Assembly: GCF_015207035.1 (NCBI RefSeq)
Contig: NZ_JADEXQ010000013.1
Coordinates: 1 to 64,000 of the forward strand
DNA: 64,000 nucleotides
From: Romeriopsis navalis LEGE 11480
Lineage (GTDB): Bacteria > Cyanobacteriota > Cyanobacteriia > Leptolyngbyales > Leptolyngbyaceae
Direction of reading: 5' to 3'
Position numbers and translations under genes: made by a program. The notes beneath the pieces are model-generated. The model was not told the DNA's origin. It worked only from the letters and a program-made list of their open reading frames with translations, and did not search any database. Shown piece by piece: positions 216 through 49,385 of this stretch. Numbering within the stretch: the first letter of the stretch is position 1; each line of letters begins with the position of its first letter.

Positions 216-1281
216 GGCACTGGCCCGCTAAGTGGGGAAATCATGTAAGCCTCGTGAAAGCAGCATTTCCGGCAGCGAAAAGGGTCGTTCCGTTAAGCCC
301 AAAGCAACCGCAGGTGTGGTCTTGAGGCTACAGTGTGGTCGGACCCAGTTATGAATTAAGCGTTGGACCGTGATCGCCCGTTGCAATCCAACCACAGTTT
401 TCGCATAGAGATTTTGCCGCCGCCGAAATGCACTACAGCGTCGTCGGATCGCTGCATTGTGGGCCTCACAATGATTCGCATGCACCTCAACTGCAGAACT
501 GATGCTGGTCCAAGGATGCTCGACTTTGCACCAAGCCCGGCGGGGTCTGCCTTGTGACCCCTTGATTTTCATCGCCACTTCGAGTCCCTTGGGCCAGACT
601 TTACGATGGGGATAGACTTTTGGATAATCACGCCGCTTCAACCAGACGGCTGACAGTTTCCAGAGTTGCTGGCTATAGCGCGGTTCACCATCGGTAAACC
701 AGCGAACCGTCGGAGAGGACTGACACCATTGCCAGGTTTGTTGCACAACTTGTTCAAACAGGGATGCTTGGCGTTGACCACAGACGGCACTGACCCAATA
801 GCGACTTTGACGTTCCAGGAAACAACTGGTTCAGCCTTGACTCAAATGGGCCGGGCGATTTTGGCCAACTTTCGTATACAACTCATCCCCTTCCAATGCG
901 ACATCACAGTCACTGGGGGCCGGGGGTGACCAAGCCTCTGATTGCACCGCAAATCGTGCTTCCCACTGACTAATAGTGGCATGACTGCGACCCAGCACTC
1001 GACCACTGGCCCGTAAACCCAGGCCTTCACTGCGCATCTTCAGGGCCATTGCGACTTCATCGACGGAATTGCGCAAGCGCGACATCGGCGTCCCAGAACG
1101 CTCATTAAAGCGTTTCCCACAACACCGACATTGATAATACTGAGCTGGTGTGCCATCTTTCAGATGACGCACACCGTTCTTATACAAATGGTCGCTTTCA
1201 CACCGGGGACAACGCATCAAATCCTTCTCTATCAATTGATGCGCCTAGAGTTCCCTATTCCTCACTTAAATGCCCAGTGCC
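216..1281 (-). mobile_element. IS1-like insertion sequence, complete ends
   Basis: The 1066-bp element is bounded by 24-bp imperfect terminal inverted repeats matching at 19 of 24 positions. Both ends begin GGCACTGG and share TAAGTG and GGAA further in. It contains one transposase gene on the minus strand and is flanked by perfect 8-bp direct repeats (208-215 and 1282-1289). The clean duplication suggests a single, relatively recent insertion without later rearrangement. The transposase has an internal stop, so this copy may not move by itself. Confidence 0.85.
228..1235 (-). pseudogene. IS1-family transposase, interrupted by one in-frame TGA
   Basis: Read from 1235 downward, the N-terminal part has an InsA-like zinc-binding region (CPRC near residue 9, CRCCGKRF near residue 36) and a helix-turn-helix-like stretch (GRVLGRSHATISQWEARF). 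The C-terminal part (HANHCEAHNAAIRRRCSAF, RLIHNWVRPHCSL) is the catalytic half of cyanobacterial IS1-like transposases. The two open parts are in the same frame. They are separated only by a TGA at 833-831 and 28 in-frame codons with no second defect, continuing TSCFLERQSRYWVSAVCGQR. Family members usually have Trp after SQG, so TGG to TGA is the likely mutation. This is not the -1 frameshift arrangement of classical IS1. Confidence 0.8.
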
Positions 1282-1366: not shown

Positions 1367-4264
1367 TTGTTTATCTTGATAGATCCTATTTTGGTGGCTA
1401 AACCAATTAATAGTGTTGAAAAACTTTTAGAAGTTGTTGTTGATACTGTTTGTTTTGCTCGAATTTTAGATGATAGAGAACTGATTCATCCTTTTCGTGG
1501 GAAAGTAAGAGTCAATGTTCGTCATGAGATTCCCTGTGAATTCATACTAAAATATCCTGTAATAATTCTAAATACCCATTATGGCTTTGAACATGAATAC
1601 TATTCACTAGAAAATATAATTCAAAAATCTTTTAAATTAGCACATCCGATTTCTTATCAAGAAATTCGTGGATTCATTAGAAGTTACGAAGTAAAAAGAA
1701 AAGAAATACTAGAGAAAAAGAAAAGAGCCGAATTAGAACAAAAAATAAGGTGTCAAGCGTACATAAGGAGACAGGAATCAACCAGGAAAATGAGGAATTG
1801 TTTTAAATCACAATTTCTTTTAGCAGATGATATCTATGAGAAATCTATATCTGACTATCTATCAAAAAAAGAATATCGGGAGTTCAAAAGAAGATTTATA
1901 CAAATTTGGATAAAGGATAATCTACAGACTTTAATAGATCTGGATCAGTCGAATGTAGTTGGATCGGTTAGAAATAACACTCAAGTTGTTGCCAGGGCTG
2001 GAAGTGGTAAAACATCAACACTTATTAATCGGACGATATTCCTTCAAAAGCACTGTTCCGTATTCCCGTCAGAGCTCCTTCTGTTAACCTTCAATAGAAA
2101 AGCCGCTCAAGAAATAGAGCAGCGTCTGAGGCATATTCTTCCAGATGATATTCCTCATGTCATGACGTTTCATGCGCTGGCCAATGCGATTGTGCATCCG
2201 GAAGAAGCATTGATTTATGATGAAAATACTAAAAATCAGCGTAAAAGCCGTAGTATACAGATAATTATTGATGAATATCGTCAAAAATCGCCATTCTCAG
2301 AAAAAATTCGAGATGTAATGCTTTACCATTTTCGGGAAGATTGGTTCCGAATTGTATGGGGTGGCTACGATAAAAGTCCAGAGGAAATGCTGGAGTATCG
2401 GAAATCGTTGCCTCACGAAACGCTGAAGGGCGATTATGTCAAATCATTTGGCGAGAAAACTATCGCAAATTTTTTATTTGAGCATGGTATTGAATATAAA
2501 TATGAATCGAATTTCTGGTGGGATGGGAGGAATTATCGTCCTGATTTCACGATTCATACTGGTAAAAAAGAAGGAGTTATTATTGAATATTTTGGTCTGA
2601 AAGGTGAGCCAGATTACGATGAGATGTCTCAGAAAAAGCGAAAGTACTGGTCAGATAAAGCTCCGCAGTGGCAATTCCTAGAATTTTCTCAACACGATAT
2701 TGCTAGAAATGGTGTAGAAGGATTCTGCCATCTGCTGAAGGATAAGCTCGAATCTTATGGGCTTGAATGCCATCGTCTCAGTGAAGAAGCAATCTGGTCA
2801 AAAATCAAAGTCCGTGCCATTGATCGTTTTACAAAAGCGGTGATGAATTTTATTCAGCGTTGTCGCAAAAAGCTATTATCTCCTGATTCACTTGAAGAGC
2901 TGATTGTCCGTTATGCACCTGTTAGCAGCGTAGAAAAGCAGTTTTTAGAATTAGGAAAATTTTTTTATCGATCCTATCTTGAGAGTCTTGGTAGGAACTG
3001 TGAGGAAGATTTTGATGGCTTGATACAGCGAGCCGCAGAACAGGTTGAATCAGGAAATACGAAGTTTTCTAGAAAATCAGGTAGTGGCGATCTGAGAAAA
3101 ATCCGATACATCATGATTGATGAATATCAGGATTTTTCTGAACTGTTCCATAAGCTAATTGCGGCAATTCAGCATCATAATCACAAAGTCCAGTTTTTCT
3201 GTGTGGGCGACGATTGGCAGGCAATCAACGGCTTTGCTGGTTCTGATTTGAGGTTCTATCAAAATTTCGATCACTATTTTTCCTCATCTAAGAAGCTCCA
3301 TATTTCTACAAATTATCGCTCCGCTAAATCGATTGTTCAAGCTGGAAATTCTCTTATGTTAGGTCTTGGCCAGCCATCTCGGGCTCATAAGGCTGATGAA
3401 GGAAGCGTTGAGTTTGCTGATTTATCTCAGTTTGAACCTACTCTGCAAGAGCGAGAGAAATATCCTGGTGATTCTATTACACCTGTGTTGCTGCGATTAA
3501 TTTACAAAATTACCCAAGCTGAACAGCATATTGCCAAATCCGAGGAAAAAAGTGGGATCGTTCTGCTTGCTCGAAAGAATTCGCTACCCTGGTATGTTAG
3601 TAAACTGACACAGAGGAAGAATTTACAAGGTGATGTTCTCGATCGTTTTCTACAGATTGTTCGAGACGAGTTGCCTGATCACCTCCGTAAATATATTTCG
3701 ATTTCGACTGTACATAAGTACAAGGGACTCGAAAAACAAGTGGTTATTATTCTGGATGCAGTCCAAAATTGCTATCCATTAATTCATCCAGATTCCGTAT
3801 TTGCAGCTGTGCTTGGGGATAAAGTAGAGGATATAGTTGCCGAAGAGCAGCGGCTATTCTATGTAGCATTAACTCGGGCAATAAAACAGCTATTTATCAT
3901 TACCGAAAAGGAAAACATATCGCCTTTCCTCCAGAAATTACAGCAGCGATCCTCGGTTCAAGCTTTAGATTGGTCTGACTATCGGCCACTTTCTATTGAT
4001 CTTGACAAGCTCACAGTCAAAATATGTAATCTCCAGGGCAAGTCTAGTGGTGGAACATTTCCGATAAAAGAGCAACTGAAGAAAGATGGCTTTAAATGGC
4101 AAAAGCCTAATTGGTGGAAAACCTACTCTGCTGTTGGATTTGTTGCGCAAGATTTGTTGAAAGAAGCGACTTGGATGAAGGAAGCCCACAACATTCAGGT
4201 TCAAGTCTGCGATAGCCAGGATCAAGTGAGTGAAATCTACTACATCGATCGAGGCCAATGGTAA
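1367..4264 (+). CDS. UvrD/Rep-type superfamily 1 helicase with nuclease-like insert
   Basis: The 965-residue protein has SF1A helicase motifs in order: Walker A ARAGSGKTS (about residue 207), Ia LLTFNRKAAQEI (240), Walker B MIDEYQDFSE (582), III VGDDWQAINGFAGSD (613), IV TNYRSAKSI (646), V STVHKYKGLE (780) and VI RLFYVALTRA (828). Between Ia and Walker B, about residues 355-445, lies a region with YRPDFTI followed by GVIIEYFGL. This resembles the PD-(D/E)xK nuclease-like insert of helicase-IV-type proteins, although the last catalytic Lys is not obvious. The N-terminus has a charged coiled-coil (100-150). The C-terminal 85 residues (FPIKEQLKKDGFKWQKPNWW) resemble a small DUF5710-like module. 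The gene is clearly richer in A+T than its neighbours and lies between insertion sequences, so I infer horizontal transfer, possibly with a DNA repair or phage-defence role. The start is uncertain: TTG at 1367 is the longest option. Confidence 0.8.
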   Translation: MFILIDPILVAKPINSVEKLLEVVVDTVCFARILDDRELIHPFRGKVRVNVRHEIPCEFILKYPVIILNTHYGFEHEYYSLENIIQKSFKLAHPISYQEIRGFIRSYEVKRKEILEKKKRAELEQKIRCQAYIRRQESTRKMRNCFKSQFLLADDIYEKSISDYLSKKEYREFKRRFIQIWIKDNLQTLIDLDQSNVVGSVRNNTQVVARAGSGKTSTLINRTIFLQKHCSVFPSELLLLTFNRKAAQEIEQRLRHILPDDIPHVMTFHALANAIVHPEEALIYDENTKNQRKSRSIQIIIDEYRQKSPFSEKIRDVMLYHFREDWFRIVWGGYDKSPEEMLEYRKSLPHETLKGDYVKSFGEKTIANFLFEHGIEYKYESNFWWDGRNYRPDFTIHTGKKEGVIIEYFGLKGEPDYDEMSQKKRKYWSDKAPQWQFLEFSQHDIARNGVEGFCHLLKDKLESYGLECHRLSEEAIWSKIKVRAIDRFTKAVMNFIQRCRKKLLSPDSLEELIVRYAPVSSVEKQFLELGKFFYRSYLESLGRNCEEDFDGLIQRAAEQVESGNTKFSRKSGSGDLRKIRYIMIDEYQDFSELFHKLIAAIQHHNHKVQFFCVGDDWQAINGFAGSDLRFYQNFDHYFSSSKKLHISTNYRSAKSIVQAGNSLMLGLGQPSRAHKADEGSVEFADLSQFEPTLQEREKYPGDSITPVLLRLIYKITQAEQHIAKSEEKSGIVLLARKNSLPWYVSKLTQRKNLQGDVLDRFLQIVRDELPDHLRKYISISTVHKYKGLEKQVVIILDAVQNCYPLIHPDSVFAAVLGDKVEDIVAEEQRLFYVALTRAIKQLFIITEKENISPFLQKLQQRSSVQALDWSDYRPLSIDLDKLTVKICNLQGKSSGGTFPIKEQLKKDGFKWQKPNWWKTYSAVGFVAQDLLKEATWMKEAHNIQVQVCDSQDQVSEIYYIDRGQW

Positions 4265-4368
4265 AGAACGGGATAGGAAGGCTGATTAAACTTTGAGCAT
4301 TTATTGTGAGGGAGCGGGATTCAGCACTTTTTTGTACGTGTGTCACATCGATTCAGTAAGTACTCTAA

Positions 4369-4389
4369 CCTACATTCCGCAGGTTTAGG
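4369..4389. repeat. Putative IS terminus, CCTACATTCCGCAGGT motif
   Basis: CCTACATTCCGCAGGTTTAGG lies just past the stop codon of the IS1634-like transposase fragment, where an element end would be expected. A close copy occurs at 4589-4608 (CCTACGTTCCGCAGGTAAGG), inside that fragment's coding sequence. An inverted copy is at 5538-5553. A weaker inverted copy lies near 5388-5402. Confidence 0.5.
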
Positions 4390-4405
4390 CCGTATCTGCG
4401 ATCAA

Positions 4406-4653
4406 CTAATAGCGGCAGGTTGGCGGTCCTAATAGCCGCATAATCAGTTGCCGTTCATCATCTAAATTCGTGATCTGTTTCAGTCCCTTGAGTATGACCA
4501 GATGGATGCCCTGAAACCTTTGGAGTATCCATCGGAAGGTTGGTTTAGCCGTTGGTCGTTTGCGTTGGTCCAGTACAGTCAGTTGTAGCCTACGTTCCGC
4601 AGGTAAGGTGATTTTGGCAGAAATAGGTATTTACGAACTATTTTCTGGGTCAT
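4406..4653 (-). pseudogene. Transposase C-terminal remnant, IS1634-like
   Basis: An open frame on the minus strand ends at the TAG complementary to 4406-4408. It encodes a typical transposase C-terminal tail with RPTAKPTFRWILQRFQGIHL and then DDERQLIMRLLG. This pattern resembles the end of cyanobacterial IS1634-type (DUF4277) transposases; the family assignment is by memory of the pattern only. All catalytic parts are missing. The fragment is cut off where the IS630-type transposase begins, so the IS630 probably inserted into, or recombined with, this older element. Confidence 0.55.
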
Positions 4654-4677
4654 CTCCTATTGCAATCCAAGGCCGAG

Positions 4678-5400
4678 TTAGGACAATGCGCGAAACGCTT
4701 CATCGACGGCATCCCAGAGACAATCCAACGGTTGTAAGTTCTGGCCCAGGTAGTGTTTCAGTCTGGCCCAAAACTTCTCAATCTTATTCAAGTCCGGCGA
4801 ATAGGGTGGCAAAAATAAGAGCACACACCCGGCTTGTTCAATCAATTGCCGCATCCGTTCCGACTTGTGAAAGCTGGCATTATCCATCACCACCACCTGT
4901 CCCGGGTTGAGTGCCGGAACCAGCATCTGCTCGACCCAGACTTCAATCAACGCCTGGTTGCAATAGCCCTCGAAGGTCATCGGTGCCACAATCTGACGTT
5001 CACACCAGCCGGACACCATACTGATACGTTGGGTGCGATGCCCCAGTTTGAATGCGTAGAAGCGTTCGGAACGGTGACAGTAACCATAGGGATAATCGTG
5101 CCGGTCATCCACCCCCGCTTCATCCACGTAGACCAACTGATGCGGTTGATAATCAGTAAGTTGTTGTTGAAACACTTGGCGCTGTGCTTCATCCCTTTCG
5201 CGGTACCCATAAGTCTTTTTTTCTCGTGAAGTTAATCCGTTTCAGCGCTTTGCCAAGCGTCACATCACTAATTGGTTCCGGCCACAATTCAGCCATGGCT
5301 TCTGCCGTGAGATGGCCATGCATTTCAACAAAGCGTTGAAATGCCTCCAGATCCGTGATTTTCGGCTCCGGACCCCGCCGAAACGGGGTCTGCGGAATTA
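4678..5400 (-). pseudogene. IS630-family transposase, N-terminally truncated and frameshifted
   Basis: The catalytic half (from about 5175 down to the stop at 4678) shows the DDE triad of the IS630/Tc1 superfamily: VYVDEAGVDD, VVMDNASFHKSE and YSPDLNKIEKFW. Upstream, the same frame reads TYGYRERDEAQRQVF. The preceding helical DNA-binding part (PEPKITDLEAFQRF to LKRINFTRKK) is in another frame. The change falls at a run of seven A followed by G on the coding strand (plus strand 5215-5222). That is a plausible programmed -1 slippery site, but it could equally be a mutation. The first roughly 60-70 residues of the family are absent: an in-frame stop lies near 5415. No terminal inverted repeats were found with confidence. 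I treat it as a dead element. Confidence 0.75.
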
Positions 5401-5537
5401 CACTTATGCTGTCTTAATCCAAACGTAGATTGCAATACATGCGTTTGAATGAAAAAATCATGAGCTGAGCATGGATAATACATGGATGGAGAGGACGCCT
5501 CTGTGTTTTCATGTAATTTCACAAGTAAATCTGCACT

Positions 5538-5553
5538 ACCTGCGGAATGTGGG
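5538..5553. repeat. Inverted copy of the CCTACATTCCGCAGGT motif
   Basis: ACCTGCGGAATGTGGG is nearly the reverse complement of the motif at 4369-4389. It lies at the left edge of recognisable pyruvyl-transferase homology. It could be the opposite end of the IS1634-like element, whose middle was lost or replaced by the IS630 copy (inference). Confidence 0.4.
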
Positions 5554-5554
5554 T

Positions 5555-6020
5555 TATGCGCCGCCATTGCGCGAATTGATTGAAAAATACGGCACGCATA
5601 TCCACTTGCTACTGGGTAATCTTGGTCCTGATACGAATGACAGACAACAAGTTCCATGAAAAAATGCAGCGGGTGCTACCCGCAGGCAGTAGCACGATCT
5701 ATAACTGGGAAAGCCCCGAGCAATTCCTCGAAGTGATGCAAGGGATGGATTTCCATATTGGGAACCGGCTGCATTCGATTATCTTGGCCGATATTTTGGG
5801 TGTGCCTAGCATTGGGATTAATGCCGAACCGCCGAAGATTTTGGACTATTTGTAAAAGACAAATCAACTGGTGAAGCCTCGCTCGGCACAGCAATTTCTG
5901 GATGAAATTACGATCGAGCAGATTGAACAGATTTTCCAGCAATACCAACGCCCGACGGAGTTTATTCAACATGAAACCCAAACTGCTGAGGCTTGTTTGG
6001 CTGCAATATTTGTTCGCTAG
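5555..6020 (+). pseudogene. Polysaccharide pyruvyl transferase remnant
   Basis: Three stretches in two frames together give the C-terminal half of a polysaccharide pyruvyl transferase (WcaK/CsaB type). They are PLRELIEKYGTHIHLLLGNL in frame 2, then FHEKMQRVLPAGSSTIYNW and MDFHIGNRLHSIILADILG in frame 3, with the frame change between about 5625 and 5650. The second frame hits a premature TAA at 5853-5855. It continues in the same frame (RSAQQFLDEITIEQIEQIF) to the true TAG at 6018-6020. The family transfers pyruvate from phosphoenolpyruvate to sugars. With the N-terminus missing, a frameshift and a nonsense codon, this gene is dead. Confidence 0.7.
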
Positions 6021-6517
6021 GTCGATCTGGTAATGTCGGGCGCGGAGGATTCTGGCAATGATTGACGCAGTTGGGCGATCGTCTTCAGAATGGCGGCGCG
6101 ATTTTTGTGGGATTGAATCCATTTGGGTAAACGCGAGACGAGACTCCGATTGCTCCAGCCGTGGATTGTGTGTGGTCGGCTTTCCCGGTGTTGGGCTTGG
6201 ACGAAGGCGGCCAGAAAATCCAGATGTTCGGGATTGAATGCCCAAAGTTGTTCACTACAGCAGGATGCTTGCAGCCAAAGCGGATAGTGAAAGTAGGGAT
6301 CGACCGTGGGCGATGGTTGTTTGCGTACGGGACGATCACCCAAGACCTTCACCGCCGCACAATTGCCACAAATAAATCGCCAGACTGCAGGTTGCTGCTG
6401 GTTTTGTGCCGGGTCAAGCGGTTGCACCGTCGCGCAGTGATGACACTCAGGACAATTCACCAGGAAGCGATCGGTGAAGTCGTGGATTGATTGGTACTCG
6501 TCGCGAAAGCGTTGCAT
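6017..6517 (-). CDS. Zinc-ribbon protein of unknown function
   Basis: From the ATG at 6517 the product is 166 residues; a TTG 12 bases upstream is an alternative start. It has CPECHHC near residue 21 and CGNC near residue 51, forming a likely four-cysteine zinc ribbon. A histidine/tryptophan-rich middle and an arginine-rich, probably helical tail follow. I do not recognise a functional family. It follows the thioredoxin-NHL gene by about 36 bases on the same strand, so the two are probably cotranscribed. Its stop overlaps the tail of the dead pyruvyl-transferase gene on the other strand, marking the boundary between the accessory region and the conserved unit. Confidence 0.65.
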   Translation of the reverse strand: MQRFRDEYQSIHDFTDRFLVNCPECHHCATVQPLDPAQNQQQPAVWRFICGNCAAVKVLGDRPVRKQPSPTVDPYFHYPLWLQASCCSEQLWAFNPEHLDFLAAFVQAQHRESRPHTIHGWSNRSLVSRLPKWIQSHKNRAAILKTIAQLRQSLPESSAPDITRST

Positions 6518-6553
6518 GGATGGTGGCAAAATGTAGCTTTAGTTTAGTCGATC

Positions 6554-7975
6554 TCATCTGAAGCAAATTCCAGGTGGGCAAAGACCAGGAAATTCGATTG
6601 AGTCAGGATGCCCCCCATTGGACGGCAGTTGTTGGATTTGATGCTGGTTGGTATTGGCGATCAAGAGGTTATGTTGATTGGCGGTGATACCCGTTGGCTC
6701 AGCGAAGCCGGTCGCAATTGTGCAACATGCGCGAGTTTGGCAATCGAACCGTTTGATTTTTTGGTTGTAAGTATCGGCAATCCAGAGCGCCCCATCAGCA
6801 TAGGTTAATCCCATTGGATGCTGGAGCTGAACGGATTCACCCCGGCCATCACGATCGCCAAAGGTATACAGATTTCCATTGCCACAGATAGTGCTTGTGA
6901 TCCCGCTGGTCAAATCAATTTGGCGAATGCTACTGGATTCACAATCAGCGACGAATAGAGAATGGCCATCGGTCGCTAAGCCGCTGGGTTGAGCAAATGC
7001 CACAATCTCTGGTGAGCCGTCAAAACAGCCTTCGGCCCCGCTACCAGCAAATGTTTCGATTCGCTCTGTGTCTAAGTCCATCTGCCAAATTTGGTGACTG
7101 CCTGCCATCGCGATCAAGAGACGACGATCGATCAGGACCAAATCCCAAGGTGAATTGAGCGGGATTTCCTTGGCCCGGCCACCATAGGGATAAATGGTTG
7201 GGCTTTGGGTGCCATTACCGGCGATCGTTGTCACCTGTTGGGCCCACAGATCAACTTGGCGGATTGCATGATTACCTGTGTCGGCAATGTAGAGGATTTG
7301 TTGAGCGCGATCGTAGGCCAGACCTTGGGGCTGGTTGAATTGGGCTTGAAAGTAATCCCCGTCGATTAATCCGAGTTGGCCATTGCCAATGGTTTGTGGC
7401 TGGCTACCATCGATTTGGCTCATGATAATTCGATGATGCCCCGAGTCGGCAATGCAAAGTTGATCAGCGATCGCCAGAACTTTGCCGGGAAAGTATAAGG
7501 GGGAATCACTGGCTGGGGCGACGGCGGTTGGGGGGATTTCAACTGCCGTTAATTGTTGATCAATTGCTGCGGCTACGGCAGCAAACCCTGACTCCCCCGA
7601 TCGGCTCAAGACAATATAGCCCTGTGGGTCAATGAGGACAAATGTGGGATAAGCCCGTATGGTATAGCTTTGCCAGATTGTCTGTTGCTGATCACAAATG
7701 ATCGGATGCTCAACCTGATGTTTGGCAATTGCGGCTTGAACGCTGTTGAGTTGTTGTTCTTGGGCAAATTTGCCGCTGTGAATCCCAATAATTGTCAAAT
7801 TGGGGAATTGCTGTGCAAGTTGATGAATCTTGGGCAACACGTGGATGCAGTTGATGCAGCCGTGGGTCCAAAAGTCGAGCAAAACATAATGCCCCTGGAG
7901 ATCCCGCAGCTTCAGTGGATGGCTATTCAACCAGTCGAAGTTAGTGGGAAATTCGGGGGCACGGATGCGGGGCAT
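6554..7975 (-). CDS. Thioredoxin-like / NHL-repeat protein (NHLRC2 type)
   Basis: The 473-residue protein starts with a thioredoxin-like domain (about residues 10-145) containing VLLDFWTHGCINCIHVLP, where CINC is the redox motif, and the cis-proline segment IRAYPTFVLID. Residues 160-470 hold five or so NHL repeats. Examples are LYIADTGNHAIRQVD, LFVADCESSSIRQID and LWIADTYNQKIKRFD, which predict a beta-propeller. The two-domain order matches the NHLRC2 family; the substrate is unknown. No signal peptide is seen, so it is probably cytoplasmic. It starts 6 bases after the stop of the giant Lys/Pro/Ala-rich gene, which argues strongly for cotranscription. ATG at 7975 is the only sensible start. 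Confidence 0.85.
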   Translation of the reverse strand: MPRIRAPEFPTNFDWLNSHPLKLRDLQGHYVLLDFWTHGCINCIHVLPKIHQLAQQFPNLTIIGIHSGKFAQEQQLNSVQAAIAKHQVEHPIICDQQQTIWQSYTIRAYPTFVLIDPQGYIVLSRSGESGFAAVAAAIDQQLTAVEIPPTAVAPASDSPLYFPGKVLAIADQLCIADSGHHRIIMSQIDGSQPQTIGNGQLGLIDGDYFQAQFNQPQGLAYDRAQQILYIADTGNHAIRQVDLWAQQVTTIAGNGTQSPTIYPYGGRAKEIPLNSPWDLVLIDRRLLIAMAGSHQIWQMDLDTERIETFAGSGAEGCFDGSPEIVAFAQPSGLATDGHSLFVADCESSSIRQIDLTSGITSTICGNGNLYTFGDRDGRGESVQLQHPMGLTYADGALWIADTYNQKIKRFDCQTRACCTIATGFAEPTGITANQHNLLIANTNQHQIQQLPSNGGHPDSIEFPGLCPPGICFR

Positions 7976-7981
7976 GGGGAA

Positions 7982-10900
7982 TTATTTCGTGAGTTTGCCG
8001 ATCGGAATTAATTCATCGGGTTGCTCCTTCGGCATGGGGAGGCGATCAAATAGACTACGCACACTTTTCGGTAGTTCTAAATCATCAAAATGAGCCTTGT
8101 CATTTTTTGGCGCCTTGGGTGCTTTCGCAATGGTTGACGCTTTGCGGTCTGATCCAGTTGTTTGATTTTTGCTCACTGCCCGGGAGTCAATTGGCTTGCT
8201 TGGGGTTGAAGTAACTTGACTGGGGATTGTGGTGGTTTTGAGGGCGACCGGTTTTACCGATGATGTTTTGGTCACTGACGCGGTGGCGCGATTGAATGTT
8301 CGGGGTGTTGTTGCTGGTGTGGCAGCTTTCGCTGGAGTTGATATGGAGACGCTGGAATTAGTTGGCTTAGCGGCTGGCTTTGGTGTTACCGATTTTGGTG
8401 CCGTTGGTTGAGCTGATGCGGGTTTCGCTGCTGTGGGTTTAGTCGCTGTGGGCTCTGGCGCAAATCTAAATCGACGGGGGCCAGTTTTGCTGGCGCTTGA
8501 TTTTGCGGGTGCAGGTGTTGGCGCTACGGTTTTAGCGGGTGCCGGGGGCTGTTTTGGCGTCGCCGGTTTTTCCGTGGGTGCCGGGGGTTTTACGTCCGCT
8601 TTTTTGTTGGGCGCTTGTGGTGTGGCCGCGGCAGGTTTAACGGGTTTTGTTTGGGATTTAACTGTAGTTTTGGGTTTTGGTGCCACTGATTTAGCCGGTG
8701 CTGATTTTGCCTTGGGTTGATCGAGATACTTCTTCAAGTAGTCAAATTGTTCGCCGTTATCTTGTGCCTGATTGGGCGTTGGCGTGGCGACCGGTTTTGC
8801 CACAGTCGTTGGTTTAACTGCTGGTTTAGTTGTTGCTGGTTTGGTTGTTGGGATGCGATTGGTCGGGACGGTTGTATTTTTTGCTGTTGGTTTGGCTGCC
8901 GGTGCGACTGGTTTGCTTTCCCGTTGCTTGGCGGCTGGTTGGCTAATCGGTGCTGGTTTTACGTCAGATGGTTTTGGTGCAGCGGCTTTGGGGGTTGCGT
9001 CATTTTTGAAGAATCGATCGAAGAAACCACCACTGTTTTGCTTGACGGTTGATTTTTTTTCTGCGGTTTTGGGTTTTGCTGTGGGTGTTTCAGGCTGTTT
9101 CGCGGCCGCTGGTTTGACCGTTGGGGTTTTGGCCTCGATCGGTTTTTGTGTCGCCGGTTTTACAGCTGGTTTGGTGGGTTTAGCCGCTGGCTTTGCCGCA
9201 GGTTGTTGGAAGAGGCTACGTCGATTTGTGGGTGTATCGGGCTTCTTAATCTCGGTTTTTTTAATTTCAGGTTTTTTAATTTCAGGCTTGACCGCTGGTG
9301 TCGCGGGTTTAATCACCGCTGGTTTAGCCTCGGGTTTATCGAGGTACTTCTTTAAGTAGTCAAACTGCGAATCGTCATTTTTGGATGGCGCGCTTTTTGG
9401 GTTTTCTGTTTTAACGGATGCCTTAGTTGCGTTTTGTGGGGCTGCTTTTTCTGTGACTGCCGGTTGTTTGACGGCGGCGGGTTTTGTTGGGGTACTTTTT
9501 GCGGGTTGGCGCATCGGCGTTGCCGCTGGTTTCGCGATCGTGGGCGTTGGTGTCGCGGGTTTCACTGCGGGCTGTTTCGCCTCGATTGCCTTTGGCGCAG
9601 CCGATTTTGCGGCCGGTTTCGTTGCCGGGGCGCTAGGTTTTGCGGCGGGCCGTTGGAAAAATCGCCGTGGGGCTGTTTTCTTGACTTCCGGTTTCTTGAC
9701 TTCCGGTTTCTTGACTTCCGGTTTCTTGACTTCCGGTGCTTTCATCTCAGGCTTGATGGCCGGTGATGTGGGCTTAGTGACTGCTGGTGCAGCGGTTTTA
9801 ACTGCGGTTGGTTTCGCCTCGGGTTTATCGAGGTATTTCTTCAAATAGTCAAACTGTGAATCGTCATTTTTGGATGGTGCGATTTTTGGTTTGTCTGATT
9901 TGACTGGTGTCTTAGTTTCGGTGGTCGATGCCGGTTTTGGTGTGACCGCTGGTTGTTTGACTGCGGTGGACTTGTTGGTTGGTTTGATGCTGGCGGATTT
10001 TGACTTTGATGGTGTTGTGGGCTTCACCGCTGGCTGTTGTTTCGCCTCGATCGGTTTTGTCGTGGTCGGTTTCGTTGTCGGGGCGCTAGGTTTTGTCGCG
10101 GGCCGCTGGAAAAATCGCCGTGGGGCTGGCTTCTTCGCTTCCGGTTTCTGGGCCGTAGGTTTGGTCACCTCAGGTTTGACGGCTGGTGCTGTTGGCTTGG
10201 CGACGGCTGGAGCCGGTGTAGCAGGCTTAACTACGGTTGGTTTTGCCTCAGGTTTATCGAGGTATTTCTTTAAGTAGTCGAATTGCGCACCATCATCTTT
10301 GGGTTTATCGGTGGCTGGTTTTGCGGCCGGTTTTGGTGCAATTGATTTAACTGCTGGCTGACTCACGCCGGAAGCCTTGCTGGGGGCCGGCTTCGCCGCT
10401 GGTTTTTGAACTGCCGTTGGTTTTGTCGGAACGGCTGTTACGGGTTTCTCTGGAGCAGTTGAAGTTGGATTTTTGGGTGCTACAGGTTTGTCATCCGATT
10501 TGAACCGATTGAAGAAACCACCGAAAGACGGCTCTGATTGTTTGGTTGTTGCTGCCGTTGGTTTTGGTGGAGTTACCGGTTGAGTGGTTGTCGCGGGTTT
10601 CCGGGCCGGTGCGGTGGCTGGTTTCGCGATCGGTGGAACGGCCTTCGGTGCAGTGGGTTTTGCAACCCTCGGCGCGGGCGTTTCGAGCTTCTTACTTGTG
10701 GGTTTTGCGGCTGGGACTTTTGTGGCCTCTGGTGCCGTTGGTTTGGATGTTGCCGGTTTTGCTGTTGTGGCTGCTGGCTTGTCGTCGGACTTAAAGCGAT
10801 CGAAGAAATTACGGTTTGGTGCTTCTGGTTTTGCTGCCGGTTTTGGCGTGGCGGCTTTTGCTGCCGGTGCAACGGCTGGTTTGGTGGTGGCCGGTTTTGG

Positions 10901-13864
10901 TTTAGCTGGCTCTGGTGATTTAACCGCTGGTTGAACTGCGGCTGGCTTTGGTGTCGTCGGTTTTGTAACGGCCGATGGTTCCGTTGATTTAAATCGATCG
11001 AAGAGTCCACCAAACGGCGAATCATCGCTTTGGGGGGGTGCGGATTTTGGTGCAACGGTTGGAGGCTTAACTTCGATCGGCTTTGGTGCTGTGGCCGGTG
11101 CTTTCACGGCGGGTGGTGCCGCTGTGGCCTTTGGTTCCACTGGTTTGATCGTCGCTGGCTTCTTAACTTCCGGCTTCTTAACTTCCGATTTGGCCGCCGG
11201 GGCCTTCACGTCTGGTTTTGTGGTGGTTTGGCTTGTGGGGGCTTTTGATGTCGCGGGTTTGTCGTCTGACTTGAACCGATCGAAGAGTCCGCCAAATGGT
11301 GAATCAGTTTGAGCTTTTTCCGGTGTTGTCGGTTTTGGTGCGACTGGTGGAACCTTAAGTTCGGCTGATTTTGGTGTTGTCGGGACTTTGACTGCCGCCG
11401 ATGGTGGTGGTGTCGGTTGCGTTACCGATTTGATGGATTTGGGGGTAACGGCTTTTGGTGCGGCTGATGCCTTTGGTTTAACAGGCTCCGGAGTTTTCTC
11501 TGCTGGTTTTGTTGCTGGCTGTGTCTCGGCGGGCTTTGGTGTAGCCGCTTTAGTGTCTGCTGGTGTGTTTTTCGAATTAAACCGATCGAAGAAACCACCA
11601 AAGGGTTTATCTGATTCCGTTGGCTTAGGGGCAGTGGGTTTTGGTTGCGGTGTTGCAGTGGGTTTGGGATTACTGCTTGGGGCTTTTGCCGCTGGTGTTA
11701 CGGCCGATTTTGGTGTGACGACCTTCGGTGCCACTGACTTAGGCGCTGCAGCTTTTGGTTGCGTCGCTGGCGTGGGTTTGAGATTAGTGCTGGGCGCTTT
11801 TACCGTGGGTGCTACTGTCGATTTTGGCGTCACAGCCTTCGGTGCGCTGGGTTTGTTCGCTGCTGGCTTCGGTTGCTCAGATGGTTTAACGGGTTTAGAG
11901 TCGGGCAGCTTCCCTGCGCTTGGCGCTGCGGATTTAGGCGCTACGGCTTTGTCTGGCGTCGGTTTGTCATCGGACTTAAATCGATCGAAGAAACTCCCGA
12001 AGGATTTGTCGTCAGATTTAGGCGCTGCAGGTTTTGGTCGTGCTGGCTGACTCGGAATCGGCTTGATGGATGGCGCTTCTAATTTGGCGGGAACGTCGGT
12101 TGATTTTACTGCGGGTTTACCGAGTGTTGGCCGATCGCCTGGCTTGCCTTCAATCAGCTTTGGCGTAGCTTTTGGTGCAGCTGGAACTGGTTTGACTTCA
12201 ACTTTTTTGGGAACTGTTGGAGTCTCAACTTTCGGTGGTGTCGTCTGCGGTTTGTCGATCGGTGGTGTGACAACCTTGGGTGTAGCCGGTTTGACGCTGG
12301 AGCTGGCCGCAGGTTTACCGAGCGGTAATGGGGCCGCTTTTGGTGTGGTCGGTTTGACGCTGGGTTTAGCTTCAGGCTTTGTCTCCGACTTGCTCGGGGC
12401 GGATTTTTCTGCCGGTGTTGGGACAACGGGCGCAGCTTGTTTTACTGGTGCTGGGACGATCGGGGCAACGGGTTTGACGTCTGTTTTGCCGAAGGGCAAG
12501 GGGATGGGGATAGGGAAGCCAAATCCTTTCTGATCTTCCGATTTCTCGACTTCTGGTGGGCTGCTCGGTTGGTTCGCCGGTGTTTTCTGATCGTCTGTCT
12601 GATCCGTCGTTGATTTAGTGCTTGATTTGGGCTCGCTGTCGGATGGCTTGATTTCGATCGGTTTCGGTGTAACCGGTGCCTGATCCGTCGTTGATTTAGT
12701 GCCTGATTTGGGCTCGCTGTCGGATGGCTTGATTTCGATCGGCTTCGGTGCAACCGGTACCGGCTTGATCGCTGGTTTTGTGTCTGCTTCCGATTTCACC
12801 GGTGGTTGGTTTTCAACCTTACTGGGTAAGGTTGGTGCCGTTTTCGCTGCGGGTTTTGTGGTGGTTGGTTGTTTCCCAAGGCTGGGCTTGGTGGTCGGGG
12901 TGCTGACTTTACTTGATGCTGGGGGGACTACCGGTATCACAGCAGGGGGAGCCGCTGGTTTGGCGACCGGCGGTTTGTACTTTGGATCGACGATCCCCAT
13001 TGCTTCCGTTGCCGTTAACTCACCACGGACAAGCTTGGATAGCGCATCATCGCCTCCAGGTGTGTAATCAAATAGCTTGACTGTGTTGTTAAAGACGTTC
13101 GAGATCGCCTTCCCTTGCTGATCGACAAACTCTAGCTGGGCCCAGTTCTGACCGGGTTTAAATCCCTTTAAGTAGATCGGTTGCCACTGGTTCAGGATGA
13201 AGCTATCACCGTTAATCGTTGCTTTGACCCGCCAATCGCGGACATCTTTATCGTCATCGGCGACCATATGCAGTGGCGCATTGGTCAAGTAGTAGTCCAG
13301 CATCACCGGTTCCGCACCGTAGCTGCCTTGGGGGCGGCTGTAGGTGAGCAGTGGGAGATCGGGATTTGGCTGATCATCCTGGGTTGCAGTCAGGACATTA
13401 AAAGTGACTTGGGCAAAAGCGCCATCATTTTTGAAGCTCTCATGCCAGGGCCGCGAAGCAAAGACGCGGACGGTATGGGTCCCTGGCTGTAGATCCTTCA
13501 GGACGAAGGGTTGGGATATGTCGTAGACCGCCTGGTAGTTATCTTCATCTAAGAAAACATGCAGGTGTGGCCCCAGACCATATTTTGCATCCTTATATAT
13601 AGGTAGATCTTTAACTTGGAATTGCAAGGAGACACTGGTGTCTTGCAGTGTTTCACCGGGTTTTGGTGTGAGAATCTTGACTTGGGGTTGATATCGGTCA
13701 AGTTTGCGGCGCAATGCTTGGATCGCGGGAGGGGTTGAGGCCTCAGCAATTTTTGGGGTTGCCGCGATCGCCATTGGGGGCAGTGATGTGCCGACAAAAC
13801 TCAGCACTAGCACAGCGATAAAAAAGCGGTGTAAACCCTTCCACCAGGACTTATTCACAAACAC
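7982..13864 (-). CDS. Giant exported Lys/Pro/Ala-rich protein with repeated aromatic motifs
   Basis: The 1960-residue product starts at GTG 13864, preceded at good distance by GAGGAG. Residues 1-35 form a signal peptide or membrane anchor (FFIAVLVLSFVGTSLPPMAIA). Residues 40-290 form a compact, probably beta-rich domain (HLHVFLDEDNYQAVYD, HTVRVFASRPWHESF). The remaining ~1650 residues are low-complexity K/P/A/T sequence, certainly disordered, carrying three recurring motifs. Motif A (GGFFDRFKSDDKP type) occurs near residues 620, 757, 857, 950, 1020, 1117 and 1615. Motif B (FDYLKKYLDKPEAKP) occurs near 1195, 1335, 1503 and 1708. Motif C (RRFFQRPA type) occurs near 1250, 1400, 1550 and 1797. 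B and C alternate. The C-terminus (FDDLELPKSVRSLFDRL) blends B and A. I recognise no named family; a multivalent scaffold or envelope-spanning linker is an inference. Confidence 0.85.
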   Translation of the reverse strand: MFVNKSWWKGLHRFFIAVLVLSFVGTSLPPMAIAATPKIAEASTPPAIQALRRKLDRYQPQVKILTPKPGETLQDTSVSLQFQVKDLPIYKDAKYGLGPHLHVFLDEDNYQAVYDISQPFVLKDLQPGTHTVRVFASRPWHESFKNDGAFAQVTFNVLTATQDDQPNPDLPLLTYSRPQGSYGAEPVMLDYYLTNAPLHMVADDDKDVRDWRVKATINGDSFILNQWQPIYLKGFKPGQNWAQLEFVDQQGKAISNVFNNTVKLFDYTPGGDDALSKLVRGELTATEAMGIVDPKYKPPVAKPAAPPAVIPVVPPASSKVSTPTTKPSLGKQPTTTKPAAKTAPTLPSKVENQPPVKSEADTKPAIKPVPVAPKPIEIKPSDSEPKSGTKSTTDQAPVTPKPIEIKPSDSEPKSSTKSTTDQTDDQKTPANQPSSPPEVEKSEDQKGFGFPIPIPLPFGKTDVKPVAPIVPAPVKQAAPVVPTPAEKSAPSKSETKPEAKPSVKPTTPKAAPLPLGKPAASSSVKPATPKVVTPPIDKPQTTPPKVETPTVPKKVEVKPVPAAPKATPKLIEGKPGDRPTLGKPAVKSTDVPAKLEAPSIKPIPSQPARPKPAAPKSDDKSFGSFFDRFKSDDKPTPDKAVAPKSAAPSAGKLPDSKPVKPSEQPKPAANKPSAPKAVTPKSTVAPTVKAPSTNLKPTPATQPKAAAPKSVAPKVVTPKSAVTPAAKAPSSNPKPTATPQPKPTAPKPTESDKPFGGFFDRFNSKNTPADTKAATPKPAETQPATKPAEKTPEPVKPKASAAPKAVTPKSIKSVTQPTPPPSAAVKVPTTPKSAELKVPPVAPKPTTPEKAQTDSPFGGLFDRFKSDDKPATSKAPTSQTTTKPDVKAPAAKSEVKKPEVKKPATIKPVEPKATAAPPAVKAPATAPKPIEVKPPTVAPKSAPPQSDDSPFGGLFDRFKSTEPSAVTKPTTPKPAAVQPAVKSPEPAKPKPATTKPAVAPAAKAATPKPAAKPEAPNRNFFDRFKSDDKPAATTAKPATSKPTAPEATKVPAAKPTSKKLETPAPRVAKPTAPKAVPPIAKPATAPARKPATTTQPVTPPKPTAATTKQSEPSFGGFFNRFKSDDKPVAPKNPTSTAPEKPVTAVPTKPTAVQKPAAKPAPSKASGVSQPAVKSIAPKPAAKPATDKPKDDGAQFDYLKKYLDKPEAKPTVVKPATPAPAVAKPTAPAVKPEVTKPTAQKPEAKKPAPRRFFQRPATKPSAPTTKPTTTKPIEAKQQPAVKPTTPSKSKSASIKPTNKSTAVKQPAVTPKPASTTETKTPVKSDKPKIAPSKNDDSQFDYLKKYLDKPEAKPTAVKTAAPAVTKPTSPAIKPEMKAPEVKKPEVKKPEVKKPEVKKTAPRRFFQRPAAKPSAPATKPAAKSAAPKAIEAKQPAVKPATPTPTIAKPAATPMRQPAKSTPTKPAAVKQPAVTEKAAPQNATKASVKTENPKSAPSKNDDSQFDYLKKYLDKPEAKPAVIKPATPAVKPEIKKPEIKKTEIKKPDTPTNRRSLFQQPAAKPAAKPTKPAVKPATQKPIEAKTPTVKPAAAKQPETPTAKPKTAEKKSTVKQNSGGFFDRFFKNDATPKAAAPKPSDVKPAPISQPAAKQRESKPVAPAAKPTAKNTTVPTNRIPTTKPATTKPAVKPTTVAKPVATPTPNQAQDNGEQFDYLKKYLDQPKAKSAPAKSVAPKPKTTVKSQTKPVKPAAATPQAPNKKADVKPPAPTEKPATPKQPPAPAKTVAPTPAPAKSSASKTGPRRFRFAPEPTATKPTAAKPASAQPTAPKSVTPKPAAKPTNSSVSISTPAKAATPATTPRTFNRATASVTKTSSVKPVALKTTTIPSQVTSTPSKPIDSRAVSKNQTTGSDRKASTIAKAPKAPKNDKAHFDDLELPKSVRSLFDRLPMPKEQPDELIPIGKLTK
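9678..9737. repeat. 15-bp tandem repeat, four units
   Basis: Four identical units of TTCTTGACTTCCGGT lie in frame inside the giant gene and encode consecutive PEVKK pentapeptides. Related, diverged units (PEIKK, TEIKK) lie near 9241-9290. Confidence 0.9.
12601..12762. repeat. 81-bp in-frame direct duplication
   Basis: Two nearly identical 81-bp copies begin GATCCGTCGTTGATTTAGTG at 12601 and 12682. They encode a duplicated segment containing PKPIEIKPSDSEPKS in the disordered part of the giant protein. The near identity suggests a recent slippage or unequal exchange. Confidence 0.9.
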
Positions 13865-38757: not shown

Positions 38758-39273
38758 ATGCAAGGCAAAATCGGCATCCTGCAAGGTGACATCACCCAAC
38801 TCCCCGTTGACGCGATCGTCAATGCCGCCAAGCCATCACTACTCGGGGGTGGCGGCGTGGATGGGGCGATCCATCGCGCCGCCGGGCCAGAACTATTAAC
38901 CGCTTGCCGTGCGCTCAACGGTTGCAAAACGGGTCAAGCCAAAATCACCTCCGGTTATCACCTGCCAGCACAATACGTGATCCATACAGTGGGCCCGATC
39001 TGGCGGGGTGGCGATGCCGGTGAAGCAGAACTGCTGCGATCTTGCTATCGCGAAAGTCTACGATTGGCCGTGGAAAATGGCATCAAGCTGATCGCATTCC
39101 CCGCGATTAGCTGCGGTGTCTATAGTTACCCGATCGATGCAGCGGCCCCAATTGCCCTATCGACCGTGGCGGAGTTTTTACAAACTGATGGTGACTCGAT
39201 CGATGGCGTTAGTTTTGTCTGTTTTGGTGATGAAACCTACAACGCCTATGTCGAGGCATTTGGCATGATTTAA
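38758..39273 (+). CDS. Macrodomain protein, probable O-acetyl-ADP-ribose deacetylase
   Basis: The 171-residue product is a single macrodomain. It has [20 protein letters not shown], the glycine-rich loop [17 protein letters not shown], and [14 protein letters not shown], as in YmdB/MacroD-type enzymes. These hydrolyse O-acetyl-ADP-ribose or remove ADP-ribose from proteins. Key Asn (VNAAK) and Asp (GGVDGAIH) positions are present. Two ADP-ribosylglycohydrolase genes lie 8 kb further on, so ADP-ribose handling recurs in this neighbourhood, but no direct link is seen. Confidence 0.93.
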
Positions 39274-47381: not shown

Positions 47382-48311
47382 ATGGATAGGCAGGATCGGA
47401 TTCAGGGTGGGTTATTAGGCTTATTGATTGGGGATGCGTTGGGTGTGCCCTACGAGTTTCAGGATGCCGCAAACTTGCCACCGATCGCCGAAATTGAAAT
47501 GACGCCGCCCTTGGGCTTTCGGCGTTCCCATGGGGCAGTGCAGCCAGGAACTTGGTCAGACGATGGAGCGCAAGCGTTGTGTTTGCTGACTTCACTTTTG
47601 GACTGTGGTCAGCTTGACCCCGATGATTTGGGGCAGCGGTTTGTGACTTGGTATCAGTCGGGCTATATGGCGCTCGATAACCATGTGTTTGATGTGGGTG
47701 TGCATACGAGTGTGGTGTTGCAGGCGATCGCGACGGGTATGCCCGCCTTAGATGCGGGTGCGATGGGCCAAGATGCCCGTGGTAATGGTTCATTGATGCG
47801 ATCGTTACCGTTGGTGTTGTGGCATCAGGGGAGTGATGCGGCCCTGGTGGCAGACGCCCATTTACAGTCGCAGGTTACCCATGGTGACGCCTACTGCCAA
47901 GTTTGTTGTGCGTTGTATTGTCTGTGGGCGCGGCGGCTTTTGGAGCGGGTGCCGTTCCCATGGAGTGAGGCCACCCGTGCTTTACGCGCGATTTACCAGC
48001 AGAACCCGACATTCCTGGATATTTTAGATTGGGCGGTTCGACCTGATGATCGGGCTGAAGGTCAAGGGAGTGGATACGTGATTGATGCTCTGAGATCGGC
48101 GCGGATGGTGATGCGCTCAGGGCGTTATGAACAGGTGGTAAAAGCCGCGATCGCCCTTGGCAATGATACGGATACAACAGCTTGTATCGCCGGCGGAGTG
48201 GCCGGTATTCGCGATGGGTTGAGTGCAATTCCGAGTCGTTGGATTGAACAATTGCGCGGCCAGGAAATTGTGTTGCCGCTCTTAGAACGATTGTTGGAGC
48301 GTTGTGTTTGA
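47382..48311 (+). CDS. ADP-ribosylglycohydrolase, first of a pair
   Basis: The 309-residue all-helical protein has the family's metal-binding motifs: GLLIGDALGVPYEF at the N-terminus, WSDDGAQALC (usually W-S/T-D-D-T), and GNDTDTTACIAGG at the C-terminus. Relatives (DraG, ARH) remove ADP-ribose from arginine or other acceptors. Gly after SDD replaces the more usual Thr, which may change metal binding or activity. The stop overlaps or directly abuts the next gene of the same family. Confidence 0.9.
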   Translation: MDRQDRIQGGLLGLLIGDALGVPYEFQDAANLPPIAEIEMTPPLGFRRSHGAVQPGTWSDDGAQALCLLTSLLDCGQLDPDDLGQRFVTWYQSGYMALDNHVFDVGVHTSVVLQAIATGMPALDAGAMGQDARGNGSLMRSLPLVLWHQGSDAALVADAHLQSQVTHGDAYCQVCCALYCLWARRLLERVPFPWSEATRALRAIYQQNPTFLDILDWAVRPDDRAEGQGSGYVIDALRSARMVMRSGRYEQVVKAAIALGNDTDTTACIAGGVAGIRDGLSAIPSRWIEQLRGQEIVLPLLERLLERCV

Positions 48312-48314
48312 GTG

Positions 48315-49385
48315 ATGAAGCATCGTCTGGAAGCCTCAATTATTGGGACATTGCTCGGCACGGCGGTCGGTGATGCGATTGGCTTGCCCTACGAAGGCCT
48401 GAGCCGTGATCGACGGCGGGTGCTGTATCCCATGATCAATCATCATCGCCTGGTGTTTGGCAAAGGGATGATCTCGGACGATACGGAGCATACTTGCTTT
48501 GTGGCGCAGTCGTTGATTGCTTCGGCGGGTAATGTCGAGCAGTTTCGCCGGGAGCTGGCGGGGCGTTTACAGTTTTGGTTATTGGGTTTGCCGGCGGGCA
48601 TTGGCTTGGCGACGTTGCGATCGATTTGTCGTTTGTGGGTGGGAATTGCGCCGCAAAAATCGGGAGTGTTTTCGGCGGGTAATGGTCCAGCTATGCGGGT
48701 GACCTTATTGGGGGTTTGCTATGGTGATCAACCAGAATATTTACGCCGCATGGTCCAGGCTTCGACGCGGATTACCCACACTGATCCGAAGGCGGAATAT
48801 GGGGCAATGGCGGTAGCGATTGCTGCTTATTTGGCGAGTTTAGGGCAGGATGTGTTGCCGAATGACTATGCCCAATTACTCAACGATCGCTTGCCAGTCG
48901 AGGCTGAGGCATTGCTTGATCTGATCAAACTCGCTGTAGCGAGTGCGGTGGCGAATGAATCAACGATTGATTTTGCCAATTCGATCGGTTGTCGTGGCGG
49001 TGTTAGCGGTTATGTTTATCAAACTGTGCCGGTAGTGATTCAAACTTGGTTGCGTTACCAGGATGATTATCTCAATGGCATTTTAGAAATTGTTCAGGCG
49101 GGCGGCGATACCGATACGACGGCGGCGATATTGGGCGGGATTATTGGAGCCAGGGTCGGGAAGCTGGGGATACCGCAGTTGTGGGTGGCGGATATGTTGG
49201 AATGGCCGCGATCGATGGATTGGATCGAGCGATTAGGTAGACGTTTAGTGCAGGTGCTGGATGGTGATTTACAGCCAGCGTTGCCGGTGTTTGTGCCGGG
49301 ATTGATTTTACGGAATCTAGGGTTTCTGATGATTGTGTTGTTTCATGGATTCCGTCGCTTGTTGCCGCCGTATCAGGTGAAGTGA
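48315..49385 (+). CDS. ADP-ribosylglycohydrolase, second of a pair
   Basis: From ATG 48315 the product is 356 residues; GTG 48312 immediately before it is also possible. It has GTAVGDAIGLPYEGLSRDRR, ISDDTEHTCFVAQS and GGDTDTTAAILGGIIG, so all metal-binding motifs are intact. A C-terminal hydrophobic segment (LILRNLGFLMIVLFHGF) is extra and could touch the membrane. It shares only the family motifs with the upstream gene, so the pair is old or differently specialised. The substrate is unknown. Confidence 0.9.
   Translation: MKHRLEASIIGTLLGTAVGDAIGLPYEGLSRDRRRVLYPMINHHRLVFGKGMISDDTEHTCFVAQSLIASAGNVEQFRRELAGRLQFWLLGLPAGIGLATLRSICRLWVGIAPQKSGVFSAGNGPAMRVTLLGVCYGDQPEYLRRMVQASTRITHTDPKAEYGAMAVAIAAYLASLGQDVLPNDYAQLLNDRLPVEAEALLDLIKLAVASAVANESTIDFANSIGCRGGVSGYVYQTVPVVIQTWLRYQDDYLNGILEIVQAGGDTDTTAAILGGIIGARVGKLGIPQLWVADMLEWPRSMDWIERLGRRLVQVLDGDLQPALPVFVPGLILRNLGFLMIVLFHGFRRLLPPYQVK

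Follow-up and report, generated by a model that had tools for sequence, protein, structure and literature searches.

The window, comprising the first 64,000 nt of contig 13 (NZ_JADEXQ010000013.1) in the 6.47-Mb draft genome of the cyanobacterium Romeriopsis navalis LEGE 11480, starts at the first base of that contig and carries, on the forward strand at positions 1367 to 4264, a gene for a 965-aa HelD-like SF1A helicase with an inserted domain that is predicted to be a nuclease of the PD-(D/E)xK type. Genes resembling psaA and psaB, together with the relatives found, mark the genome as cyanobacterial. The reading frame of the helicase gene contains no internal stops, and relatives match most of its length at an E value of 0. 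The TTG at 1367 is the first in-frame start codon; the true start is possibly the GTG at 1394, because this codon lines up with the start region of a relative from the same family (L002). All SF1A motifs, described as intact in the original prediction, were located in the protein (GSGKT, residues 212 to 216; TFHA, 267 to 270; DEYQD, 585 to 589; GDDWQAI, 614 to 620; NYRS, 649 to 652; HKYKG, 783 to 787; and YVALTRA, 832 to 838), and the key residues of these seven motifs are near-invariant across the 71 relatives compared; taken together with four residues of the insert (E363, D393, E407, and K424), they are kept in 65 to 71 of these sequences, across phyla. Matches to the Pfam domains UvrD-helicase (PF00580, 1.7e-38) and UvrD_C (PF13361, 6.7e-20), together with the intact motifs, place the protein among the UvrD/Rep-like SF1A helicases. 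The top structural match of the helicase is UvrD (2is2, 2.1e-20), HelD of Bacillus subtilis is also among the structural matches, and the top NCBIfam model is DNA helicase IV (NF008276, E = 7.6e-60).

The N-terminal region (residues 1 to 190, positions 1367 to 1936), in which a poorly modelled stretch (residues 1 to 94) is followed by long helices, has the lowest GC content within the gene, 29%. The first part of helicase domain 1A, containing motif I (GSGKT) and TFHA, and the first half of 1B (residues 191 to 337, positions 1937 to 2377) precede the inserted domain (residues 338 to 472, positions 2378 to 2782), with its conserved residues E363, D393, E407, and K424; after it come the remainder of 1B, motif II (DEYQD), the GDDWQAI motif, and the second RecA-like part, which contains HKYKG and YVALTRA (residues 473 to 871, positions 2783 to 3979). 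The C-terminal alpha/beta domain (residues 872 to 965, positions 3980 to 4261) is found in the close clade and is absent from E. coli HelD. DNA helicase IV of E. coli (HelD, b0962) resembles the window protein in its SF1A motor, the VGDDWQAI signature, and an SPF motif near the C terminus, but it is shorter (684 aa), lacks both the insert and the C-terminal domain, and shares only 23% identity. The window protein is not DNA helicase IV proper, as it scores 203 bits against an equivalog cutoff of 543 and its domain 1B is interrupted by the insert of ∼130 residues.

By its composition, this gene appears clearly foreign and horizontally acquired. Its GC content is 0.383 and its GC3 is 0.328, whereas 17 other genes of the window (GC contents of 49 to 55%) average 0.521 and 0.584, respectively; the codon-usage score of the gene is −0.14, compared to +0.02 to +0.15 for the other window genes, which bears out the earlier remark that its base composition departs from that of its neighbors. 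The gene had also been described as boxed in by insertion sequences (ISs). An IS is indeed present on each side, the left one being complete, but the two belong to different families and the right one is decayed. The left IS (positions 216 to 1281, reverse strand), with the terminal inverted repeat GGCACTGG and a two-ORF IS1-like layout judged by eye, is also represented at other genomic sites by several copies that are partial or diverged. It is bounded by two identical copies of the 8-bp target-site duplication ATAATGCT (positions 208 to 215 and 1282 to 1289), the right copy lying less than 80 bp upstream of the TTG start. This clean insertion may have separated the helicase-nuclease gene from its promoter; a promoter scan around the left IS returned nothing above shuffled sequences. 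On the other side lies a degenerate IS630-type element (approximately 4658 to 5437, reverse strand) with a DDE_3 transposase fragment (4678 to 5175) and 28-nt imperfect terminal repeats. As the two elements are unrelated, a composite transposon is ruled out. The repeat CCTACRTTCCGCAGGT occurs three times around the decayed element (4366 to 4384, 4586 to 4605, and 5537 to 5556), once in inverted orientation, and a polysaccharide pyruvyl transferase remnant consisting of the C-terminal part only (5580 to 5855) is found beyond it.

Compared to E. coli HelD, the ∼130 extra residues (338 to 472) lie between TFHA and DEYQ, and the PF00580 match is stretched over residues 193 to 638 for 267 profile positions. 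This spread and the anatomy of the UvrD family suggest that the insert sits in subdomain 1B. Its initial placement between motifs Ia and II needs correction to a position after TFHA, in subdomain 1B. An AlphaFold2 model of the insert, built with 65 relatives (mean pLDDT, 95.9; pTM, 0.89), consists of a leading helix followed by a helix, strands, a helix, a strand, and a helix; the alpha-beta-beta-beta-alpha-beta core of PD-(D/E)xK enzymes can be recognized in it, and the predicted fold is that of a restriction endonuclease. The PD-(D/E)xK-like segment noticed earlier inside the helicase, for which a search for a nuclease core by structure prediction had been proposed, is therefore supported both by this model and by the nuclease-dominated lists of structural matches. 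Although a Foldseek search of the insert against the PDB gave no match under an E value of 0.001, the top of the list is made up mostly of nucleases (R2 retrotransposon endonucleases, McrC, TnsA, and VRR-NUC) and includes the catalytic domain of I-Bth0305I (probability of 1.00, TM score of 0.69 by target length). Against viral models, there were 43 matches at E values of ≤0.001, including proteins annotated as Vsr, homing endonucleases, endonuclease I, and Holliday junction resolvases. By Foldseek, the insert is connected to Vsr-like endonucleases.

When the insert profile was compared to PDB sequences, the best match was T7 endonuclease I (E = 0.004), whose catalytic residues E20, D55, and E65 align with E363, D393, and E407 of the insert. 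This sequence link is weak, and T7 endonuclease I falls outside the structural top 50. Phage_endo_I is the most common Pfam match among family members (12 of 65, weak, with a best E value of 1.4e-4), ahead of TPD, Vsr, DUF559, and RE_endonuc; the window insert by itself has no match to Phage_endo_I and is not assigned to the T7 endonuclease I family. T7 endonuclease I and the Vsr-like (EDxHD) endonucleases share the PD-(D/E)xK-type fold with the insert but, unlike the window protein, are stand-alone enzymes. E363 is found in all 71 sequences compared, E407 in 70, D393 in 69, and K424 in 65, and the columns for E363, I366, Y379, E380, D393, F394, E407, and K424 are invariant in a 46-row alignment with a mean column identity of 24%. 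The lysine of the ExK motif is replaced, with E407-Y-F in the window protein and E407-Y/H-F/W in the family, so that F409 aligns with position 67 of T7 endonuclease I (Lys in the wild type); K424, on the helix that follows, may take the place of the canonical lysine. The absence of that lysine, the loss of D393 or K424 in some relatives, and the appearance of B. subtilis HelD among the structural matches could instead mean that the insert has no nuclease activity and serves a structural or DNA-binding purpose, or that it works in the manner of the RNA polymerase-binding parts of Bacillus HelD; this is highly improbable, given the near-invariance of the acidic triad and K424 in very divergent members and the nuclease fold of the model.

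The same nuclease module is found in other protein contexts. The PADLOC models PDC-S68 and PDC-S69 match the insert only; positions 1088 to 1174 of the PDC-S68 profile correspond to residues 344 to 430 of the window protein, and this confined match does not make it a PDC-S68 member. In PDC-S68, the module forms the C-terminal end of a ∼1,200-aa RecD-like helicase, whereas in PDC-S69 it ends a ∼290-aa protein. The PDC label denotes a predicted candidate rather than a demonstrated system (PMC11514479). A genome from the same family as the window carries a PDC-S68 protein (L120, positions 5742 to 9527), a RecD-like helicase that ends in the same nuclease, beside PDC-M26A/B. The whole group at that locus (1600 to 9527) comprises AAA, McrC-like, and RecD-like helicase genes, the last with the terminal nuclease (PDC-M26A/B and PDC-S68), and lies behind a transposase fragment. 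The module is also present in cyanobacterial open frames of ∼270 to 450 aa and ∼1,220 to 1,270 aa. A single nuclease thereby links three unexplained gene sets, namely, the HelD-nuclease family, PDC-S68, and PDC-S69.

Proteins that pair a helicase with a nuclease feature prominently in prokaryotic immunity. In the familiar examples, the two activities are fused end to end or divided between subunits, whereas a nuclease located within domain 1B represents a different coupling geometry. GajB of the Gabija system, as well as RecB, AddA, and AdnB, resembles the window protein in having a UvrD-like motor tied to nuclease function. However, GajB requires the separate GajA nuclease, and RecB, AddA, and AdnB carry a RecB-type nuclease at the C terminus and require partners. 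Membership in Gabija was rejected, as GajB models match only the helicase stretches of the window protein and no GajA (OLD-TOPRIM) ORF was detected among the flanking genes scanned, the left flank stopping at the contig end. Similarly, the Pfam scan revealed no C-terminal RecB/AddA/AdnB-type nuclease domain, and there is no recurring partner. The anti-phage protein Hna, like the window protein, combines a helicase and a PD-(D/E)xK nuclease in one gene, in that case with an SF2 motor (PMC13381803). The window protein is not a member of the Hna family, since its motor is of the SF1A type and its nuclease is internal rather than C-terminal. The kind of protein is known, but this geometry and this family have no model of their own in the Pfam, NCBIfam, and PADLOC libraries searched, and no paper on PDC-S68 or on the HelD-nuclease fusion was found in the literature searched, although comparative surveys, such as a PD-(D/E)xK census, may contain an earlier mention. 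Family members are annotated generically as “UvrD-helicase domain-containing,” and DNA searches of E. coli genomes with two relatives found no orthologue; these two circumstances could be the reason why the family has been overlooked so far.

A GTDB scan gathered 80 loci with relatives from Cyanobacteriota, Poribacteria, Pseudomonadota, Myxococcota, Chloroflexota, Bacillota, Planctomycetota, Armatimonadota, archaea, and others, and the catalytic residues are kept in all but a few of them. The exceptions include two proteins with an intact helicase and a D393S (L034, 9983 to 12892) or K424Q (L037, 9941 to 12508) replacement, an apparent decay of the nuclease alone, and one (L069) with a degraded insert. 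Within the family to which the window genome belongs, a full-length relative is found in 4 of 42 genomes, its own included, and relatives occur in 9 of 386 cyanobacterial genomes, 3 being broken or truncated (G151, G208, and G229). In a quick tree with SH-aLRT support only, the window protein is basal to a cyanobacterial-poribacterial clade (support of 99) and apart from its same-family relatives (L002, L004, and L047), and the copy from a plasmid of Anabaena sp. 90 is nested among chromosomal ones. The patchiness and the tree are what would be seen for a mobile gene that its hosts can do without, and, as had been expected, the homologs do not occupy core-genome positions, being patchy in occurrence and having no recurring neighbor. 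An accessory host DNA repair helicase, i.e., a foreign HelD paralog acting in recombination or at stalled forks, would agree with the closeness to the helicase IV model and with the ordinary chromosomal neighbors of some copies; such a role is nevertheless distinctly unlikely in view of the very patchy distribution, the broken copies, the foreign composition, and the score below the helicase IV cutoff. No full-length close match was detected in 50,697 phage records, and IMG/VR yielded a single full-length match from the close clade (43%), so a phage replication gene is not favored. In Thalassomonas, two family members from different clades are adjacent (L052, 9719 to 16449) and a third is located on another contig.

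Comparison of 37 loci revealed no recurring neighbor family beyond a few pairs or triples, mostly from near-identical loci or general families. An operon partner was therefore rejected, which implies that the helicase-nuclease works either by itself or in concert with host factors that are scattered; the initial impression that no known partner is present holds for the window genes and for these loci alike. Whether homologs lie in defense islands has a mixed answer. Some relatives have a BREX PglX-type methylase immediately upstream (L054), HsdM and HsdS of a type I restriction-modification (R-M) system downstream (L055), or an abutting GmrSD gene together with an upstream large helicase bearing an MTES_1575 nuclease (L057), but only a handful of the 123 neighbors of mostly cyanobacterial and poribacterial members have a PADLOC match. 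More distant relatives reside on plasmids in Vibrio, with an abortive infection gene nearby, and in Acinetobacter, near a ThiF/multiubiquitin cluster. In Rossellomorea (L059, 6573 to 17629), a relative is located beside an RlmH-like gene, recognized by eye, among several serine recombinases, a setting suggestive of an SCC-like cassette. A group of IMG/VR contigs (L168, L173, L174, L176, L179, L181, and L190) encodes closely similar HelD-nuclease relatives, and on one of these, a prophage-like contig (L176), the gene lies just past the tail fibre/host specificity genes.

Such carriage on plasmids and prophages, the combination of a HelD-type motor with a domain resembling junction nucleases, and the adjoining integrases, serine recombinases, or primase-like genes at four loci (L059, L065, L130, and L163) would also suit an enzyme that serves mobile elements in recombination or replication repair, unwinding and resolving branched intermediates of plasmid, prophage, or integrative-element DNA for its carrier. 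This alternative appears rather unlikely: the gene is found in a minority of elements only and has no fixed replication partner, it also occurs in chromosomal defense loci and is essentially absent from isolated phage genomes, and its nuclease module is shared with defense candidates. The interpretation that we favor, with moderate confidence, is a stand-alone helicase-nuclease that would act on foreign DNA with branches or ends and most likely serves as a horizontally moving one-gene module of immunity or DNA competition, degrading incoming or replicating foreign DNA. An anti-phage or anti-plasmid role is plausible and draws indirect support from the nuclease module common to PDC-S68 and PDC-S69, the BREX, R-M, and GmrSD neighbors, and the presence on plasmids and prophages. 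Points against it are the missing ExK lysine, the existence of relatives that lack catalytic residues yet keep the helicase, the paucity of defense genes near cyanobacterial and poribacterial members, the weakness of the T7 endonuclease I link, and the fact that carriage by plasmids and prophages fits DNA-processing genes as well.

Both active sites of this architecture are conserved, its distribution is patchy, its contexts are mobile, and its nuclease module is shared with defense candidates. We infer its unwinding and cleavage activities, polarity, substrate, and defensive role as follows. A 3′-5′ SF1A motor of the HelD/UvrD kind would load on single-stranded or branched DNA, and the nuclease in subdomain 1B would cut DNA near the single-strand/duplex junction. 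In PcrA and UvrD, 1B contacts the duplex at the fork, and 3′-5′ translocation of the motor should therefore bring the nuclease to the junction. Its kinship with T7 endonuclease I and Vsr points to a nuclease that recognizes the structure of DNA instead of its sequence; such a nuclease would be well suited to attacking foreign DNA during replication or recombination. The module would be carried by plasmids, prophages, and genomic islands. The simplest guess for how self DNA could be spared is that a free end or a branched intermediate acts as the trigger, akin to ideas put forward for Gabija (PMC12407980). More tentatively, and as a possibility that we would not yet call probable, these proteins may make up a widespread and so far undescribed family of single-gene immunity proteins. 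By sitting in 1B of a HelD-type motor, a structure-selective endonuclease would tie cutting to the opening of a junction, and the nuclease would be a mobile cassette that RecD-like and small proteins recruited separately and that several helicase-based defenses have in common.

Elsewhere in the window, positions 7982 to 13864 encode a repetitive 1,960-aa protein rich in Pro, Ala, and Lys, with a signal peptide-like start and recurring blocks of the FDYLKKYLDKPEAKP and FGGFFDRFKSDDKP types. A macrodomain-like gene (38758 to 39273) and two tandem ADP-ribosylglycohydrolase-like genes (47382 to 49385) were recognized by eye, suggesting that genes of ADP-ribose turnover are grouped in one stretch of the window.
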